From the NCBI GenBank assembly GCA_000063505.1, contig CT971583.1, positions 1,023,918 to 1,087,917 of the forward strand: DNA of 64,000 bases, written 5' to 3'. Shown piece after piece: positions 56,063 through 63,906 of the stretch. The DNA comes from Synechococcus sp. WH 7803 (lineage in GTDB: Bacteria > Cyanobacteriota > Cyanobacteriia > PCC-6307 > Cyanobiaceae). The notes beneath the pieces are model-generated. The model did not search any database. It worked only from the letters and a program-made list of their open reading frames with translations, and was not told where the DNA came from. Numbering within the stretch: position 1 is the stretch's first letter; every line of letters begins with the position of its first letter. A program made the translations under genes and the position numbers.

Positions 56063-58453
56063 CTAGTCAGCTTCCACGCGCAATGCCTCCCGCATCATCC
56101 GTTGCACGCGTTCCTGCACGGATTCGTTGGTCATCCGATTGTTCAAGCGTTCCACCAGCAGGGGGAAGGCGAGTGGGCCCGGTCGGGGTGTTGGGCAGTG
56201 CAGGGTGTCCCCTCGGCGGATTCGCCTCAGAGCAGAGCGCAGTCGGGGCAGCTCGAGCTGCTCCTGCAACACCTCGTCTCTGGCTTGCCGAAGCAGAAGG
56301 TTGTTGGGTTCGTGTTTGCTGAACACTTCCCACAGCAGCGAACCGCTGATCTGAAGTTGGCCCGTGGATTTGTTCTTGCCGGGGTATCCCTGCACCAGCA
56401 GCCCCGCCACCTGGGCAATGCTGCGAAACCGGCGTCGGCACAATTCCGAAAGGTTCAGGGCCTGCTCCAGATCCTCTTCCAGTGATGCGTCATCGAGGAG
56501 CGTGTCGAGATGGTCCTCCAGCAGCTGATCGATGGGATAGCCCCTCGGTGCCAGCAGTTCAAATCCGTAATCGTTCACCGACACTGTGATCGTTCCCCTC
56601 TGCACGCGCGTGAGGCGCGTCGCCCACAGGAAGCCGAGTCCCTCATGCACGAAGCGGCCTTCAAAGGGGTAGGCGTAGAGGTGAACCCCCTCTCGAGTCC
56701 GGCAGGTTTCGATCAGCATCTGATCGCTTGCGGGCAGGGTGGAGAGATCCATCTGCCGCTCAAACAACGGTTCCAGGGCCTTGAGTTCCGGTGTGTCGAG
56801 CTCCCCGCGCCCGGCCCGAGCGACTTCCTCGCGCAGATGGTGGGTGAGCAGATCAGACAGCGACATCTGCCCGCCAGCCCAGGCTGGAACCGCCGTGCTT
56901 TTTTTGGTGGTGCTTTTCACATAAGCCGTCATTTCGCGCAGACGCACGAACTCCAACTGGCGTCCGGCAAAAAAGAACACATCCTTGGGCTTGAGCTGGC
57001 TGATGAAACTTTCTTCCACGTGACCGAGCACCGAGCCGCGCACGAAGCGCACGCGAATGGACGGAGCGGAGGTGATCGTGCCGATGTTGAAGCGGTGCAG
57101 CCTGGCGATGGCCGTCTCGCGGATCACGAAGCGTCCGTCGTCTGTGGCTTCCAATTTCCGGTAGCGGGGATACGCCCCGAGGCAATCGCCCCCCTGCTCG
57201 AGAAAGCGCAGGCACCAGTCCCAGTCGCTTTGCGTCAGTTGCCCGTAGCTGGCGGTGGCACGAATGGCCTCCAGGGTTGATGTCGGACAGAAACCCGGTC
57301 CGCAGGCGAGGGTGGTGAGGTGCTGCAACAGCACATCCAAGGGGGCATGGGGTGGGCGTCGTTCCTCCACCAAGCCGTTCTCCAGTCCGCGGCGCACGGC
57401 ACTGAGCTCCAGCAGTTCAAGAGCGTTGGTTGGCATGAACAACACCTGGGAGGTTCCCCCAGGCAGGTGGGCCGAACGCCCGGCTCTCTGCAGCAGGCGG
57501 GCCAGATTCTTGGGAGATCCGATCTGCACCACCTGTTCCACCGGCTGGAAATCAACCCCCAAATCCAGGGAGCTGGTGCAGACCACCCAAAGCATGGTCC
57601 CTGCTTTCACCGAGGCTTCAATCGCCTCGCGCTCGCTGCGATCCAAAGCGCTGTGATGGAGAGCCAGCAGTCCCTCCATCTCAGGGCAGGCATAGCGCAG
57701 GCATTGAAACCAGCGTTCCGCCTGGTTGCGGGTGTTGGTGAAGAGCAGCGTGCTGGTGGTGGGAACCAGGGATCCCACCAGGTCTTCGTAGCGTCTGAGG
57801 CCGAGATGTCCTCCCCAGGGAAAGCCATCAATGCTGTCCGGGAGAATGCTGCTCACGCTTAGTCCCCGCTTGGGGGCTCCGGTGATCAGACAGGGTTCAC
57901 ATCGGTCTCCGAGGGCATGCCGTGCCGATTCCTCCAGATTGCCGATGGTGGCGCTGATGGCCCAGGTCTGCAGCCCGGGGCGTTGTTGCCGCAACCAACT
58001 GAGCGCCAGTTCTGCCTGAATCCCTCGCTTGCTGCCGATCAGTTCATGCCATTCATCGAGGATGACGGTGTCGAGGGTCTGAAACAGGCGCTCGCAGTGT
58101 CGACCAGCCAGAAGCACGCAGAGCGACTCAGGCGTGGTGATCAGAATCTCTGGTGGCGATTTGATCTGGCGTGAGCGTTCGGCCGTTGGCGTGTCTCCAT
58201 TGCGGATGGCGACCCTCAAGGGCCATTGCATGGCGTCGATCGGATTTTGAATCGCCAGGGCGAGGTCGCGGCTCAGGGCCCGCAGGGGCGTGATGTAGAG
58301 GAGTCGAACGCCCTTTGCTTCGGAGGGTGACGCGAGCATGTGGGCGATGGGCCCCATCACGGCGGCGTAGGTCTTCCCCGAACCGGTGGGCACCTGAATC
58401 ACCCCGCTGCGACCCTCGAGATGGGCCGCCCAGGTGGACCGTTGGAAGGGCAT
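56063..58453 (-). CDS. Ligase-associated DEXH-box helicase (Lhr-like)
   Basis: A 796-residue (or slightly longer) superfamily 2 helicase. Motifs are I GVIQVPTGSGKTYAAV, II VILDEWHELIG (DEWH), III WAISATIGN, V VVCTSSLDLGVDFQPVEQVVQIGSP and VI LQRAGRSAH. The C-terminal DUF1998-like region fits Lhr proteins. It belongs to the family found with ATP-dependent ligase, exonuclease and PdeM. Homology appears to extend 5' of ATG 58453 (RWFARQGWTPMPFQR), but no ATG, GTG or TTG is found there before the neighbouring gene; CTG at 58498 or ATT at 58489 are candidates. Followed by chrA in the same direction. Confidence 0.92.
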   Translation of the reverse strand: MPFQRSTWAAHLEGRSGVIQVPTGSGKTYAAVMGPIAHMLASPSEAKGVRLLYITPLRALSRDLALAIQNPIDAMQWPLRVAIRNGDTPTAERSRQIKSPPEILITTPESLCVLLAGRHCERLFQTLDTVILDEWHELIGSKRGIQAELALSWLRQQRPGLQTWAISATIGNLEESARHALGDRCEPCLITGAPKRGLSVSSILPDSIDGFPWGGHLGLRRYEDLVGSLVPTTSTLLFTNTRNQAERWFQCLRYACPEMEGLLALHHSALDRSEREAIEASVKAGTMLWVVCTSSLDLGVDFQPVEQVVQIGSPKNLARLLQRAGRSAHLPGGTSQVLFMPTNALELLELSAVRRGLENGLVEERRPPHAPLDVLLQHLTTLACGPGFCPTSTLEAIRATASYGQLTQSDWDWCLRFLEQGGDCLGAYPRYRKLEATDDGRFVIRETAIARLHRFNIGTITSAPSIRVRFVRGSVLGHVEESFISQLKPKDVFFFAGRQLEFVRLREMTAYVKSTTKKSTAVPAWAGGQMSLSDLLTHHLREEVARAGRGELDTPELKALEPLFERQMDLSTLPASDQMLIETCRTREGVHLYAYPFEGRFVHEGLGFLWATRLTRVQRGTITVSVNDYGFELLAPRGYPIDQLLEDHLDTLLDDASLEEDLEQALNLSELCRRRFRSIAQVAGLLVQGYPGKNKSTGQLQISGSLLWEVFSKHEPNNLLLRQARDEVLQEQLELPRLRSALRRIRRGDTLHCPTPRPGPLAFPLLVERLNNRMTNESVQERVQRMMREALRVEAD

Positions 58454-58506
58454 CGGGGTCCAGCCCTGACGCGCAAACCAGCGCTCAATCGGGTTCAGAG
58501 AATGGG

Positions 58507-58716
58507 TCAGACCAGAATCACGCTGACGACAACAGCTGTCACAGCGAGCACAACAGCTGCAACAACAATGCCCGCTGCGATGTTGCCCTTGCGAATCTCG
58601 CCTCGGTAGTCGAGAGGGGTCAGGCGATCAAACAACCAAACCCCCCCAACGATTAACAGCACCCCAGCGACTGTCCAGAGAAGACTGAGCAGCAGCTGGG
58701 CAATCGGTCCCGGCAT
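58507..58716 (-). CDS. DUF350 membrane protein (YjfL-like, one repeat)
   Basis: A 69-residue protein with two membrane helices (LLLSLLWTVAGVLLIVGGVWLFDRL and NIAAGIVVAAVVLAVTAVVVSVILV). The linker DRLTPLDYRGEIRKGNIAAGIV is the DUF350 signature. Bacterial YjfL has two such repeats; this one has a single unit. In other bacteria DUF350 genes accompany PspA-like, spermidine synthase-like and DUF4178 genes, and those last two are divergently encoded here, so it belongs to the adjacent cluster. Just upstream of the helicase gene. Confidence 0.87.
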   Translation of the reverse strand: MPGPIAQLLLSLLWTVAGVLLIVGGVWLFDRLTPLDYRGEIRKGNIAAGIVVAAVVLAVTAVVVSVILV

Positions 58717-58774
58717 CGGTCGTGACGTGGAAGTTGTAGTAGTAATTTAGGACCGGGCAGCCTGTAGGAAATTC

Positions 58775-59761
58775 ATGCAGCAGACTGCTTCAGCCTCGTC
58801 AACGGGTTCGGGCCTCAAGGCGCCAGTTTCATCGCTCACGCTTCGGCCTCTTTCGGTTCTTTTAATTCCCGTTGGGCTTCTTGTTGCCACATTCTTCGAT
58901 CGCCCTTCGACGATCACCAACCTGAGTGTGCAGGTTCCCCGCGCTGACCAGCCGGTGGTCTCGAAACCTTTCGAGCTGCCCAATACCAACCATCGAGTCA
59001 CGGTCAGGTACCAGTTTTCCGTTCCTGCCAAAACATTCGTATTTCTTTCCACAGAGTTAATAGACGACAAGGGTGTCGTTCAGTTTCAATACGACAGGGA
59101 AGGCCAAAGTCGCTCAAAGAATGATGGATTTCTCGAGTTCAGGCCAAACAAGCCCGGGCGTTTTCGCTTTCGCTTCGAGGTGTATCTTCCTAAAGACGAA
59201 CTAGCGCAGCCCACCCAACTCACAGCGCCAGTTGTTGTCGACAGTGCCATCACAAAAGATCCCTTCGATTCGGGTGCACTTGTTTATGGATTTTGGTCGA
59301 CCTTGATTGTCAGCCTGCTGTATCTGTCACAGGTGTATTTTCGTGGAGATCTTCAATGTTCTGGTTGGTGTACGAGTGAGTCCGAATTGAAGCGCGCCAC
59401 CCGTGGCGAGTATCGAAGTGGATTGCTCAGAGTGCGCTTGCGTGGATCCTATGAAGTTCCAGATCGATGGTATGCACCGGAGCATCAGGCCATACAAATG
59501 GAGATTCGCAATGGTTTAGGCTGTTTGATTTTTCAGGGAACGATTCCTTGTCGATTCACGCGTGATAGCGAAGATTCTGATACCTATACCCTATGTGCTG
59601 AGCCCCAGCTGTTCGATCTCACTCGGGATAGCTTTTTACGCTTTGACGTGAGTCTTCCCACTGTTCTTAATAACCTCGATCCTGAACGCATCGGTATTCA
59701 GATCTGCGATCGGGTCATCCTCCCCTGGAACCAAGACATTCGAGCCCGCTTGAATCCATGA
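58775..59761 (+). CDS. Membrane-anchored beta-domain protein of unknown function
   Basis: A 328-residue protein. A hydrophobic N-terminal segment (LSVLLIPVGLLVATFF) is followed by a beta-sandwich-like ectodomain (YQFSVPAKTFVFLSTELIDDKGVVQFQYDRE...GFLEFRPNKPGRFRFRFEVYLP), a second membrane segment (SGALVYGFWSTLIVSLLYLSQVYF) and a C-terminal soluble part. It is the first gene of a rightward four-gene operon: this gene, Gly-rich peptide, spermidine-synthase-like protein, DUF4178. Stop and next start overlap by ATGA. No family recognised. Base composition is slightly more AT-rich than the neighbours, which may mean transfer. Confidence 0.75.
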   Translation: MQQTASASSTGSGLKAPVSSLTLRPLSVLLIPVGLLVATFFDRPSTITNLSVQVPRADQPVVSKPFELPNTNHRVTVRYQFSVPAKTFVFLSTELIDDKGVVQFQYDREGQSRSKNDGFLEFRPNKPGRFRFRFEVYLPKDELAQPTQLTAPVVVDSAITKDPFDSGALVYGFWSTLIVSLLYLSQVYFRGDLQCSGWCTSESELKRATRGEYRSGLLRVRLRGSYEVPDRWYAPEHQAIQMEIRNGLGCLIFQGTIPCRFTRDSEDSDTYTLCAEPQLFDLTRDSFLRFDVSLPTVLNNLDPERIGIQICDRVILPWNQDIRARLNP

Positions 59762-60033
59762 CCAAGCTCCTTTTGCTGCTTCTCAATGGAGGGATTGCTG
59801 CTCTGGCCCTCAGTGCAGCGTTGACGAACGACAGTGTGAACCAAGTGGGTTCGAGCCTTTTGCCACAAACCGATAGCCAAGGTGAGTTCCGCGGCTCCTA
59901 TGTGGGTGGTCGTTGGGTTAGCCGAAGCTCTCGCTTGGAAACAAATCGACTGCTGTACTACGGAGGCAGTGGTGGCTCTGGAGGTTCGTCCTACGGCGGT
60001 GGGTATGGCGGTGGTGGATGGAGCGGCAAATAA
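59758..60033 (+). CDS. Small exported Gly/Ser/Tyr-rich protein
   Basis: A 91-residue protein with a signal peptide (LLLLLLNGGIAALALSAALT) and a C-terminal low-complexity tail (YYGGSGGSGGSSYGGGYGGGGWSGK) after the basic stretch GGRWVSRSSRLE. It resembles in layout, not in proven homology, the Gly-rich exported proteins (DUF4247 or DUF1190/YgiB type) that accompany DUF350 and DUF4178 genes in other bacteria. It overlaps the preceding gene by ATGA and the spermidine-synthase gene by 16 nt. A possible substrate for modification or a membrane-associated linker; function unknown. Confidence 0.7.
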   Translation: MTKLLLLLLNGGIAALALSAALTNDSVNQVGSSLLPQTDSQGEFRGSYVGGRWVSRSSRLETNRLLYYGGSGGSGGSSYGGGYGGGGWSGK

Positions 60034-61607
60034 CCGCCGCTGATCTCAGTCCCGTCCAGGTGCGGGTGCTGTTGGTGACGGCCATGGTGTCCTCAGCGGC
60101 TGGCCTAACGCTGGAGCTGCTTCTGGTCGCCCAGGCGAGTTACCTGATGGGTGATGCAACCCTGGCCACTGGTGTGGTGGTGGGCACGTTTCTCGCGGCT
60201 ATGGGGCTGGGTGCCTGGTTGACCGAATTCATCGGCACGAAGAGGCAATCCCTGGTGCGATTGCTTCGGGCGTTGATGCTGGTGGAACTCTGCCTATTTC
60301 CCCTCTGTTTGCTTGGACCTCTGGCGTTGTTCTGGTTGTTCTCGCGCAATGCGCCGCTCTGGTTGGCGACCGTCGTGCTCACTGTGCTTGTGGGGTTGCT
60401 TGGCGGCATGGAGCTGCCGCTGATCACGCGCATGCTCGAAACCCAGGATCAATTGCGCCGCGCCCTTGCGAGGGTTCTTGCGCTGGATTACCTGGGGTCT
60501 CTCGTCGGTGCCCTTGCTTTCCCCCTGGTGCTGCTGCCCTGGCTCGGTCTGCTTCCATCCGCCGCGGCGTTGTCGCTCGTTCCGGTGGGGTGCAGCCTGG
60601 CCCTGGCCTCGGTTTTCCCAAGCCTGCGGCGCTGGCGCTACCCCTTGCTGGCCCTGTTCCCCCTGGCATCGGTCGCGGGTGTGCTGATCGCACCGCTGGG
60701 TGATCGCATCGAGGATCGCTTTTATGGGGCGCGGGTAATTGAAAGGAAGCAATCGCGATTTCAGCGCATCGTGTTGACCCGCCAGGGTGCCGACCTCAGG
60801 CTTTTCCTGGATGGAGATCTGCAGTTTTCAAGCCTTGATGAGTACCGCTATCACGAAGCGTTGGTGCATCCTGCGTTGGCTTGGCACCCAGCACCGCGAC
60901 GCATTCTTTTGATGGGCGCAGGCGATGGCTTGGCCCTCAGGGAAATCCTTCGTTGGCCTGATGTTGAGAAGGTCGATGTGGTGGAACTTGATCCAGAGGT
61001 GGTCAAGTTGGCGCGTCGTCATCCCATGCTTCGGCGTCTCAATGCTGACAGCCTCCAGGATCCAAGGGTTCAGGTTCATCTCGGTGATGCCTATGCCCAT
61101 CTGCGTTCCCTGCCCAACCAATACGACGTGGTGATTGCTGATTTTCCCGATCCGGATACGTTGCCCGTCGCTCGCCTCTACAGCGTGGGTTTCTATGGCA
61201 CCTTGCGCCAACGGCTCAATCCAGGCGCTGTGGTTGTCACGCAGGCCAGTACACCCTTTCTCGCACCCCGCGTTCTGGCCTCGATTGAAGCTGCATTGCG
61301 GGAGGTGGGTTTGCTGACGCGTCCTTACTCAGTGGCGATTCCAAGTTTTGGACCCTGGGGATTCGTGATGGCCCATGAGAACAACGGGTCCGATCGTTTC
61401 CGCCCGATACCGTTCGCCACGCGTTGGCTGGATGCCGATCAGCTTTCTGCATTGTTTGCCTTCCCCCGTGATTTGCGGCCTGAGGCCTCGGATACAGTTC
61501 AACCCAATCGAATGACGCGCCCGGTTCTGCTCGACTATCTAAGGAATGATCGCCGCCGCAGGCTGCAACAACCTCGTCTGCTGATTCCTATGACCCCTGG
61601 GTTCTAA
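60018..61607 (+). CDS. Spermidine synthase-like methyltransferase with N-terminal membrane domain
   Basis: A 529-residue protein. The first about 230 residues contain about seven membrane segments (AGLTLELLLVAQASYLM, VVGTFLAAMGLGAWL, LMLVELCLFPLCLLGPLALFWLF, VVLTVLVGLLGGMELPL). Residues 240-470 form a spermidine-synthase (SpeE) fold: LFLDGDLQFSSLDEYRYHEALVHPAL, RRILLMGAGDGLALREILRW, VVELDPEVVKLARRH, VHLGDAYAHLR and the active-site-like VVIADFPDP. This membrane form is the one found with DUF350/DUF4178. Whether it makes spermidine or modifies another amine is unknown. Translation is coupled to DUF4178 (TAATG). Confidence 0.88.
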   Translation: MERQITAADLSPVQVRVLLVTAMVSSAAGLTLELLLVAQASYLMGDATLATGVVVGTFLAAMGLGAWLTEFIGTKRQSLVRLLRALMLVELCLFPLCLLGPLALFWLFSRNAPLWLATVVLTVLVGLLGGMELPLITRMLETQDQLRRALARVLALDYLGSLVGALAFPLVLLPWLGLLPSAAALSLVPVGCSLALASVFPSLRRWRYPLLALFPLASVAGVLIAPLGDRIEDRFYGARVIERKQSRFQRIVLTRQGADLRLFLDGDLQFSSLDEYRYHEALVHPALAWHPAPRRILLMGAGDGLALREILRWPDVEKVDVVELDPEVVKLARRHPMLRRLNADSLQDPRVQVHLGDAYAHLRSLPNQYDVVIADFPDPDTLPVARLYSVGFYGTLRQRLNPGAVVVTQASTPFLAPRVLASIEAALREVGLLTRPYSVAIPSFGPWGFVMAHENNGSDRFRPIPFATRWLDADQLSALFAFPRDLRPEASDTVQPNRMTRPVLLDYLRNDRRRRLQQPRLLIPMTPGF

Positions 61608-62212
61608 TGGCTGGCCTTATTTTTATTTTTCTCCTTATTGCCCTGCTTCTGTGGCTTTGGTCTCGCTACAGCATGGGCACATGGCATCGTCCTCCGGTGG
61701 GATCAATGCCTCAGCAGCGCACCTTGTTCAATCTTCAGGTGGGTGATGTTGTTCAGCATCTTTCACGCGATTGGATCGTTGAAAACACCCTTGTTTTTGA
61801 TCAAGAAGGTTTCCAGTGGCAGGAGTATTACCTAAGGGACGGAGCAGAGGGGGTTTGGCTGGTTGTTGTTGATGACGACCGAATTGAACTGTCTTGGATG
61901 CATCAGGTGCCTCCGGAAGAGGTCTCTGTCCTGTTCCCCCTCCGTGATGAGCTTGTGTACCAAGGCATCCGTTATCGATTGGCGGAAAAGGGGATCGCTA
62001 ACTACCGCAAAACGTCCCGAGGCAGTCAGCAGGGAGGTCCCTGTCGTTTCTACGACTATGCGGCGCCGTTCGATCGGGTTCTCAGCGTGGAGATTTACTC
62101 CGCTTCTGAACTTCTTGCTGATAGTGGTGAGATTGAAATGTGTGTTGGAGTTCGCATTACTCCAGAGGCTCTCACTTTGCTACCGGGAGATGGTCGTAGC
62201 GTTTACTCCTAA
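61607..62212 (+). CDS. DUF4178 domain protein
   Basis: A 201-residue protein with one N-terminal membrane segment (GLIFIFLLIALLLWLWSRY). The cytoplasmic or periplasmic domain is beta-rich: FNLQVGDVVQHLSRDWIVENTLVFDQEGFQWQEYYLRDG, VVDDDRIELSWMHQ, and RYRLAEKGIANYRKTSRGS, matching DUF4178. The family is known from clusters with DUF350, spermidine synthase-like and PspA-like proteins. ATG overlaps the preceding TAA. Its own TAA overlaps the ligase stop as CTAA. Last gene of the cluster. Confidence 0.85.
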   Translation: MAGLIFIFLLIALLLWLWSRYSMGTWHRPPVGSMPQQRTLFNLQVGDVVQHLSRDWIVENTLVFDQEGFQWQEYYLRDGAEGVWLVVVDDDRIELSWMHQVPPEEVSVLFPLRDELVYQGIRYRLAEKGIANYRKTSRGSQQGGPCRFYDYAAPFDRVLSVEIYSASELLADSGEIEMCVGVRITPEALTLLPGDGRSVYS

Positions 62213-63906
62213 ACAGCGCGTTGCGCCTCGCACAGTTGCACGGCGTCGATGAGTGTATTGGCACTTTGCGCGGTGCGGTCATGGCGCCAGCGCAGAATTC
62301 TGGGGAAGCGAACAGCCAGTCCGCATTTGTGGCGTTTGGATGGCTGAATGCCCTCAAACCCGATTTCAAACACCAGATCGGGAGTCACCGATCGCGTTGG
62401 TCCGAATCGTTCCACTGTGTTGGATCGAATCCAACGATCGAGCTCGAGAATTTCACGATCGTTCAGGCCGGAATAGGCCTTGGCAAAGGTCACAAGCTGA
62501 TGCTGATCAGGATCAGCTGCGTGGCGATCCCAGAGGGCAAAGGTGTAGTCGGTGAACAGATTGGCGCGGCGTCCACGTCCTGCCTGGGCGTAGATCAGCA
62601 CGGCGTCCAGGGTCATGGGATCGCGTTTGTGTTTCCACCAATGGCCGCGTTTGCGTCCACTCAGGTAGGGGGATTGCCTCTGCTTCAGCATCAGCCCCTC
62701 CGCTCCTTCACGCACGGCCTGCTGGCGCAGGGTGTCGAGCTCATCCCAGGAGCTGAGTGCTTCCCCAGCGCTGATGCGCAGCTGTCCCGTGGATCGAGCC
62801 TCCTGCATGGAGTCCAGCAGCAGGTTCATTGCCGCGAGGCGCTCGTCCAGGGGGCTGTTGCGACGATCCTCTCCACCGGATTCGAGCAGGTCGTAGGCCA
62901 CGAAACAGGCCGGGCAGTCCTCTCGAAGTTTCCGGCCCACGCTCTTTCGACCCAGGCGGCGTTGCAGGTCGCTGAAGGGTCGCGGTCGGTCGTCTTCGGC
63001 AGCCCAGCAGATCACCTCACCGTCAAGCACGGTGTCATCGGCCAGGGACGCGGCCATCGCAATCAGCTCCGGAAACTGTTCATTGATCAGTTCCTCCCCA
63101 CGACTCCAGAGATAGGTACCGCTGTTGCGTTGGATCAGCTGCCCGCGGATCCCGTCCCATTTGTGCTCCACCCACCACTGTTGTGCCGGCGTCTCCCGCA
63201 GGGAGTCCAGTTGCAGGGGACTGGCCAGAAAAAACGGATAGGGCACCGGTCCCCGATTGGTGCGTTCCGTTGTGGGTGTTGCGGTGAGCGCTTCAAACCA
63301 GCTCCGTGACGGTTCGCTCGGGGCCATCAGCCGCTCCAGCACCAGGGCCTCCTCCAGGGCAAACCCCTTGGCGATCGCCTTCACCACAAGCCCCCTGGCA
63401 ACGCCGATCCGAAACCCTCCTGTGAGCAGCTTGTTGAATAAAAAATGCCGCTCATCCGGTACAGAGCTCCAGATTGTGAGCAGGGCTGCACTCTGAGTGG
63501 TCGGCTCGAGCAGCGCCAGTTCCGGCAACAGCTCTTCCATCCACCAGTGCAGGGGCGGGTTGGTTGCGATGGTTTCGATCCAGGCGTTCAACCTGTCGTT
63601 AACAGCCTGAACCGGAACGGACCCTTTGAGCTGCGGCCACAGCAGCGCGAGGGTCTCTGCGGAATCACCAACATGGCTCTGACAATCGTCGAAGAGCCAG
63701 TCGGGAATGGCGTCGCACGCCTGCAAAATCTCGCGAAGCCGGCGACCGGTGATCAGGCGTCGCCGCTTTTCACCCATCAGAAGCAACACGCTCCAGGCGC
63801 TGTCGTGGGACTCGCCAGCACGGAGATGGTCGGCAATCAGCGCGACCTTGCGCGCCGTGCCCGTGCATTGATCCAGGGCATCGATCAGCGTTGCGAAATC
63901 ATTCAT
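62209..63906 (-). CDS. ATP-dependent DNA ligase (ligase-associated repair type)
   Basis: A 565-residue ATP ligase. The adenylation lysine motif is VEHKWDGIRGQLI (KxDGxR). Further motifs are LDGEVICW (motif III), LMLKQRQSPYLSGRKRGHWWKHKRDPMTLDAVLI (motif V, K..H...K), and the OB-fold segment RSVTPDLVFEIGFEGIQPSKRHKCGLAVRFPRILRWRHD. The N-terminal helical domain about residues 1-180 is as in bacterial LigB/LigC-type enzymes that function with the helicase and PdeM. ATG at 63906; the same frame is open to the window edge but without homology I recognise. Stop shares CTAA with DUF4178. Confidence 0.93.
   Translation of the reverse strand: MNDFATLIDALDQCTGTARKVALIADHLRAGESHDSAWSVLLLMGEKRRRLITGRRLREILQACDAIPDWLFDDCQSHVGDSAETLALLWPQLKGSVPVQAVNDRLNAWIETIATNPPLHWWMEELLPELALLEPTTQSAALLTIWSSVPDERHFLFNKLLTGGFRIGVARGLVVKAIAKGFALEEALVLERLMAPSEPSRSWFEALTATPTTERTNRGPVPYPFFLASPLQLDSLRETPAQQWWVEHKWDGIRGQLIQRNSGTYLWSRGEELINEQFPELIAMAASLADDTVLDGEVICWAAEDDRPRPFSDLQRRLGRKSVGRKLREDCPACFVAYDLLESGGEDRRNSPLDERLAAMNLLLDSMQEARSTGQLRISAGEALSSWDELDTLRQQAVREGAEGLMLKQRQSPYLSGRKRGHWWKHKRDPMTLDAVLIYAQAGRGRRANLFTDYTFALWDRHAADPDQHQLVTFAKAYSGLNDREILELDRWIRSNTVERFGPTRSVTPDLVFEIGFEGIQPSKRHKCGLAVRFPRILRWRHDRTAQSANTLIDAVQLCEAQRAV

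Follow-up and report, generated by a model that had tools for sequence, protein, structure and literature searches.

The gene cluster analysed here lies in a 64,000-nucleotide stretch of the Synechococcus sp. WH 7803 genome (contig CT971583.1, positions 1,023,918 to 1,087,917; hereafter the window) and encodes a DUF350 protein, a 328-aa membrane protein, a 91-aa exported Gly-rich protein, an aminopropyltransferase with seven transmembrane helices (7TM) and a DUF4178 protein. A study by Li et al. 2019 reportedly dealt with a related fusion of a major facilitator superfamily (MFS) part and a spermidine synthase (MFS-SpdSyn), occurring with S-adenosylmethionine (AdoMet) decarboxylase (AdoMetDC) and DUF350, and is said to have concluded that the substrate is other than putrescine, naming none. 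Fusions of the 7TM-SpeE type also reportedly do not complement a speE mutant. To our knowledge, the substrate of these enzymes, which are spread over many phyla, is an open question. RefSeq lists the Escherichia coli ATP-grasp enzymes YgiC and YjfC as peptide-spermidine ligases. The accessible part of PMC11237479 describes a PspA/CesT-Tir operon with a 7TM spermine-synthase fusion, YjfL (DUF350), the Ctha_1186 lipoprotein and DUF4178; it suggests aminopropylation of other substrates, leaves the enzyme's substrate open and proposes that such systems monitor the polyamine level. The fungal NHMT, in which a 7TM part is joined to a SpeE-like domain, acts on exported lytic polysaccharide monooxygenases by methylating their N-terminal His, and according to the accessible text of PMC10349129 the binding of decarboxylated AdoMet (dcAdoMet) requires the acidic residue of GxG(D/E)G, which is Ile in NHMT.

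As far as the accessible part of PMC11237479 describes it, the PspA-linked operon resembles the window in combining the 7TM-SpeE enzyme, DUF350 and DUF4178 with a small exported protein. The window differs in having no adjoining PspA or CesT/Tir gene, in carrying the 328-aa protein with two beta domains instead, and in the 69-aa size of its DUF350 protein. A reading of the letters made without database searches (the sequence-only reading) had stated that such genes co-occur with PspA-type genes in bacteria, and a PspA operon of this kind is indeed in print there. The operon type being already published, what appears to be new here is that the Gly-rich partner ends in lysine, a feature with no mention in the accessible part of the same paper. 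We found no report of this lysine tail in the open literature; subscription papers, Li et al. 2019 among them, were not covered by that search. With NHMT, in turn, the window enzyme shares the arrangement of seven N-terminal helices on a SpeE-like domain, and what the accessible text describes for NHMT, an exported protein modified at a terminal residue, is what we propose for the window enzyme. NHMT, however, is a methyltransferase with Ile in place of the acidic residue, whereas the window enzyme keeps the Asp of GxGDG, and an NHMT-like methyltransferase was rejected on this ground.

We propose that the 7TM enzyme probably aminopropylates the C-terminal Lys of the exported Gly-rich protein, a proposal drawn from comparisons of sequences and predicted structures. 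In the family of the window genome, listing the small open reading frames (ORFs) upstream of the enzyme gave a signal-anchored Gly-rich protein ending in Lys in all 27 loci with the enzyme. A filter blind to the last residue, which took ORFs ending at the enzyme start and chose among them by position and hydrophobicity, returned 26 ORFs in 25 of the 27 loci, and 25 of the 26 end in Lys. The lone non-Lys ORF is a second, out-of-frame ORF at locus L049, and for the two loci missed by this filter (L057 and L070) the Lys-ended ORFs were found in other listings. The usual tail in the family reads ...GFQGRGPGxAK, with ...GGGWSGK in the window and at L049. The Lys-tailed protein is also present at the class-level cyanobacterial loci L128, L129, L130, L131, L133 and L134. 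Within the same phylum it occurs in seven of seven enzyme loci of group f31 (L153-L156, L158-L160), and all eight genomes opened from groups f32-f35 were positive (L143, L144, L146, L147, L149, L151, L152 and L161), three of them carrying it on a contig that did not show the enzyme.

The pattern extends over many phyla, so the system is not a cyanobacterial speciality. We scanned contigs with 14 enzyme sequences and analysed the best 80 of 583 confirmed loci. A strict filter, again blind to the last residue, kept ORFs of 30-250 aa that contain a hydrophobic segment and have 5 or more Gly among the 15 residues preceding the last; it found ORFs in 25 loci, and 25/25 end in Lys. Under looser limits 31 of 35 ORFs did so, and of the remaining four, three fall within the enzyme gene, the fourth being located 2.7 kb upstream. 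As a background, 80 of the 535 ORFs of at least 200 aa in the same 80 loci end in Lys. Counted by locus, in a tally made partly from reading frames judged by eye and including relatives that are not independent, 58 of the 80 have a local Lys-tailed protein, one a probable one (L233), in another five the same genome encodes it at a distinct DUF4178 locus (L162, where it lies at L146, and L175, L191, L217 and L228), and none was found in 16. One compilation of tailed ORFs was picked for a Lys end, with Gly favoured before it, and its 58/58 Lys and 56/58 Gly are the product of selection and no test; for L237 it has a wrong ORF, the correct one ending YYHK. According to the record titles, positive loci come from Bacillota classes, Bacteroidetes, Armatimonadetes, Campylobacterota families, Nitrospirota, Anaerolineae and Acidobacteria, and further ones from Gastranaerophilales, Proteobacteria, Myxococcales and Coriobacteriaceae. 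The enzyme was found in 5 of 100 actinobacterial genomes, the query's own counted, and three of the four new loci have a Lys-tailed protein, as do four of the five opened among ten plasmid records with the enzyme. We rejected the idea that the Lys end is a by-product of the 16-nt overlap between the end of the peptide gene and the start of the enzyme gene, because many of the peptides are encoded apart from the enzyme gene, beyond DUF350 or on another contig.

The tail, with a consensus of roughly RGGG(P/T)xxGK-COOH, is borne by otherwise dissimilar carriers, namely DUF4247 proteins (L184, L291), a DUF4178 protein with a membrane segment (L172) and short peptides of no family; in many Bacillota loci it is the DUF4178 protein itself that ends in it. 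The loci with DUF4178, membrane segment and Lys tail in one protein are L164, L167, L168, L169, L170-L174, L178, L180, L183, L190 and L240. In Novosphingobium (L297) the operon encodes SPFH, two DUF4178 proteins, a 48-aa protein ending TGPSHK, DUF350, the enzyme, an amine oxidase and SpeD. The gene directly after the enzyme, similar to flavin adenine dinucleotide (FAD) amine oxidases, lies at 7442-9058 of L297 (PF01593), and such a gene takes the same place in L207, L210, L211, L219, L229 and L233. Judged by eye, the N-termini of these proteins resemble twin-arginine translocation (Tat) signals, and in some lineages the tail may be the target of a Tat-type amine oxidase working outside the cytoplasm.

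A parallel is offered by the ATP-grasp ligase operons. Like the window, YgiC/YjfC with YgiB/YjfM (DUF1190) combine DUF350 with an exported Gly-rich partner that has an RGGFG/RGGG-like tail, and a C-terminal polyamine would result in both. The enzyme there is an ATP-grasp protein and the partner ends in Gly-Gly, as against the 7TM-SpeE enzyme and the Gly-Lys end of the window. A ligase forms an amide on a carboxylate, which accounts for the Gly-Gly end, and aminopropyl transfer to an amine would likewise account for the Gly-Lys end. The partner ended in Gly-Gly in 8/8 examined ligase loci having one; six of these partners were taken from annotated neighbours or known genes (YgiB and YjfM of E. 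coli; Rhizobium, Sulfitobacter, Pseudomonas and Deinococcus plasmid loci), and those of Arthrobacter and Methylobacterium were found by a pattern that demands Gly-Gly. A ninth ligase locus, that of Azospirillum with a YgiC relative of 28% identity, showed no such partner; plasmid records containing a YgiC relative numbered 147, and seven of them were examined. In an Arthrobacter plasmid record (L304, 1868-2374) a gene named tRNA-dihydrouridine synthase, probably wrongly, stands just before the ATP-grasp ligase and has a Gly-rich ...GGHGG tail. DUF350 occurs with both ATP-grasp ligases and the 7TM enzyme. We are evenly divided on whether these are two DUF350-sharing routes by which bacteria widely provide exported Gly-rich proteins with a C-terminal polyamine tail, and in which the ATP-grasp route would join spermidine to Gly-Gly and the 7TM route would build up the polyamine on Gly-Lys.

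The window enzyme matches Spermine_synth (PF01564, E 2.8e-39) in Pfam and, above the cut-off, the polyamine aminopropyltransferase PRK03612 in NCBIfam (E 6e-166). In its AlphaFold model (mean pLDDT 93.4), seven helices at the N-terminus (12-44 to 201-236) precede an aminopropyltransferase domain, which begins after about residue 239 and contains the motifs GAGDG, YHE and DFPDP. The GxGDG, YHE and DxPDP columns are invariant among 55 aligned enzymes, and a side-by-side alignment with the soluble SpeE of the same genome shows that the window enzyme keeps the GxGDG Asp and the DxxDP Asp pair. In a Foldseek search (best match 1uir, E 5e-18) the nearest solved structures are the Thermus triamine/agmatine aminopropyltransferase and plant thermospermine synthase, both of which use acceptors longer than putrescine. 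The 7TM part had no match of its own among the top 50 PDB matches listed, all of them soluble aminopropyltransferases. The soluble SpeE, 36% identical to the 7TM enzyme, and SpeD are both present in the window genome, and the 7TM copy is therefore not needed for spermidine. Side observations on the enzyme concern other cyanobacteria. At L130 (6721-7893) a 390-aa ORF, transposase-like by eye, interrupts the 7TM enzyme gene and the Lys-tailed peptide is intact. Loci L136-L141 carry a SpeE-like protein without the N-terminal 7TM part beside DUF4178, and in L139 the SpeE-like protein is altered in the RE motif and in the DP that ends DxPDP; we noticed no Lys-tailed ORF in the ORF listings of L136-L141, where no rule-based search was made.

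We infer the reaction, the acceptor atom, the membrane side and the roles of the remaining genes as follows. The acceptor would be the C-terminal Lys of the 91-aa protein encoded by the overlapping upstream gene, and not free putrescine; the Lys side chain shares the aminobutyl end of putrescine, and the flexible Gly-rich tail would let it reach the active site. The donor would be dcAdoMet, supplied by the SpeD encoded elsewhere in the genome, and the product an exported, membrane-held protein with a terminal N6-(3-aminopropyl)lysine, in effect a polyamine tail. The DUF350, DUF4178 and 328-aa proteins may then assemble, hold or use the tailed protein at the membrane. A comparable group is known from deoxyhypusine on eIF5A, where a nicotinamide adenine dinucleotide (NAD) enzyme transfers aminobutyl from spermidine to an internal Lys; in both cases a polyamine-derived group would sit on a Lys side chain, which is internal and receives aminobutyl in eIF5A and would be C-terminal and receive aminopropyl from dcAdoMet here. 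The terminal Lys across unrelated carriers, the conserved catalytic residues and the Gly-Gly contrast in the parallel ATP-grasp operons together suggest this reaction. The sequence-only reading had proposed a polyamine- or aminopropyl-based modification of membrane or peptide; its peptide half is supported and sharpened by the terminal-Lys pattern, and nothing that we found points to membrane lipids.

Several results weigh against aminopropylation of the tail. The Lys-tailed partner was not found in 16 of the 80 loci across phyla. Nine of these 16 are proteobacterial (L188, L192, L200, L213, L225, L231, L234, L235 and L238), with none at either the enzyme or the DUF4178 locus, two of the contigs with the latter being truncated; eight of the nine are titled Dechloromonas, Accumulibacter, Propionivibrio or beta proteobacterium. 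The partner is also missing from the ORF listings of the class-level cyanobacterial locus L135, from the actinobacterial locus L293 and from a Burkholderia plasmid locus, one of the five plasmid records opened. On the donor side, a search of 50 carrier genomes, a large share of them metagenome-assembled, found SpeD (PF02675) in 43 and not in the other seven; it was found in two of four actinobacteria and not in the other two, and none was found in Corynebacterium glutamicum, a control that has PRK03612 and DUF4178. Charge counts in the 55 enzyme sequences place the cytoplasmic loops after helices 2, 4 and 6, which weakly suggests a catalytic domain outside the cytoplasm, and such a position would leave the supply of dcAdoMet unexplained. 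Finally, a conserved Lys could serve binding instead of modification. As a separate observation on the nine partnerless proteobacterial genomes, their DUF4178 gene adjoins DUF350 and a gene for a protein beginning MALMDFIKKQF.

Binding is the basis of the rival that survives best, which we nevertheless consider unlikely: the Lys tail would be a ligand or polyamine mimic that docks in the enzyme or in DUF350 and regulates a maker or exporter of free polyamine. The tail is cationic and resembles a polyamine, the accessible part of PMC11237479 proposes polyamine monitoring, and three acidic residues located within or close to the membrane helices, E33, E132 and D157, are invariant or almost so in the 55 sequences. 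A maker of free polyamine is, however, already present as the soluble SpeE, and binding would tolerate a terminal Arg or an internal Lys, whereas the tail stops exactly at Lys.

It is distinctly unlikely that the tail Lys receives another AdoMet-derived group, 3-amino-3-carboxypropyl or methyl, in place of aminopropyl. The hosts without PF02675 SpeD, the C. glutamicum control included, speak for such a reaction, as do two actinobacterial enzymes from SpeD-less genomes (L291 5241-6908 and L292 5538-7118), in which YTE...VY replaces YHE...VH; the donor may therefore differ there. Against it, the window genome has SpeD and the enzyme keeps the acidic GxGDG residue by which the accessible text of PMC10349129 separates aminopropyl from methyl transfer, and in some lineages SpeD lies within the operon itself (Novosphingobium L297, and by coordinates L180, L183, L190 and L240). 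We hold it very improbable that the enzyme aminopropylates a membrane lipid or other envelope component, with the Lys-tailed protein merely a scaffold: this would suit its membrane anchoring and the association with PspA in other lineages (PMC11237479, in its accessible part; PF04012, PspA, in L154), but leaves the Lys at the extreme end and the Gly-Gly of the ATP-grasp operons unexplained. Least probable of all is a conventional spermidine synthase, present as a second copy and anchored in the membrane. The family name and the conserved catalytic residues would point to it, but we set it aside, since it would be redundant with the soluble SpeE, since DUF350, DUF4178 and the tailed protein recur as partners, and since such fusions reportedly do not complement a speE mutant.

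The features of the locus are collected in Table 1. The ORFs and families bear out the layout given in the sequence-only reading, with DUF350 divergent from four overlapping plus-strand genes; in the ORF list these overlap by 4, 16 and 1 nt in order, and DUF350 is separated from them by a 58-nt gap. The same reading's statement that no ATP-grasp or PspA gene adjoins the cluster also holds: Pfam and NCBIfam gave no ATP-grasp ligase among the seven window proteins scanned, and neither PspA nor CesT/Tir adjoins the module, which is flanked by the helicase and the DNA ligase (the rest of the genome was not searched for PspA).

Table 1. Features of the DUF350/7TM aminopropyltransferase/DUF4178 module and its flanks in the window
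Feature	Positions	Strand	Evidence or remark
DUF350 protein, 69 aa, two predicted membrane spans	58507..58716	-	ORF; PF03994 E 4.3e-13 (Pfam)
328-aa membrane protein, two beta domains	58775..59761	+	ORF; AlphaFold model; without known family
91-aa exported Gly-rich protein, N-terminal hydrophobic segment, C-terminus ...GGGGWSGK, proposed substrate	59758..60033	+	ORF; Lys-ended homologues
Codons for the final Ser-Gly-Lys of the 91-aa protein; last Lys the proposed aminopropyl acceptor	60022..60030	+	Sequence; terminal-Lys pattern
529-aa 7TM aminopropyltransferase, PRK03612 family	60018..61607	+	Pfam, NCBIfam, AlphaFold, alignments
DUF4178 protein, 201 aa, N-terminal hydrophobic segment	61607..62212	+	PF13785 E 7.7e-30 (Pfam)
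Ligase-associated DEXH helicase (flank, outside the system)	56063..58453	-	NCBIfam TIGR04121; marks insertion site
ATP-dependent DNA ligase (flank, outside the system)	62209..63906	-	NCBIfam TIGR04120; marks insertion site

Regarding the 328-aa partner, its AlphaFold model (pLDDT 88.3) has a helix at 25-41, a beta region at about 45-162, a second helix at 166-187 and a second beta region at about 192-326. Neither Pfam nor NCBIfam gave any match, at E values of up to 1, for this protein or the 91-aa protein, and Foldseek returned only generic beta-sandwich matches for the 328-aa fold, with TM-scores of at most about 0.28, from which no function could be drawn. We aligned 26 sequences of the protein; its homologues turned up in cyanobacterial loci only, and no systematic search was made elsewhere.

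Of the 201 genomes sampled from the family, 28 have DUF4178, the window's own counted, and the 328-aa protein was detected in 16 of the 201, every one of them within those 28. The recurring neighbourhood in cyanobacteria expected by the sequence-only reading was confirmed, beyond what chance would give, in the regions fetched around DUF4178 from the other 27 family genomes: DUF350 and the 7TM enzyme are each present in 26/27, a 328-aa homologue detectable by BLASTP in 20/27, and the helicase and ligase are both visible on the fetched stretch in 20/27. At L051-L053 we noticed about 2 kb extra between the enzyme and DUF4178, with open reverse-strand frames. In the window the module fills the interval between helicase and ligase exactly (58453-62209). 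Within the genus, the two flanking genes share one contig in 27 of 31 genomes, with a spacing of 80-288 bp in 21 of the 27 and of 3.76-4.97 kb in six, window included; among these six the module was seen in two (G000, G141) and is deduced from the gap in four. The block is thus gained or lost as a unit.

A terminal Lys on otherwise dissimilar carriers points to one candidate substrate and one candidate atom for this enzyme, together with a predicted mass shift. If the proposal is true, a protein ending in N6-(3-aminopropyl)lysine would carry a post-translational modification that is new. The proposal would also account for the fact that DUF350 occurs with two unrelated enzymes, each making a polyamine-ended envelope protein, and it would tie polyamine chemistry to the membrane-stress genes that stand beside such operons in other bacteria.

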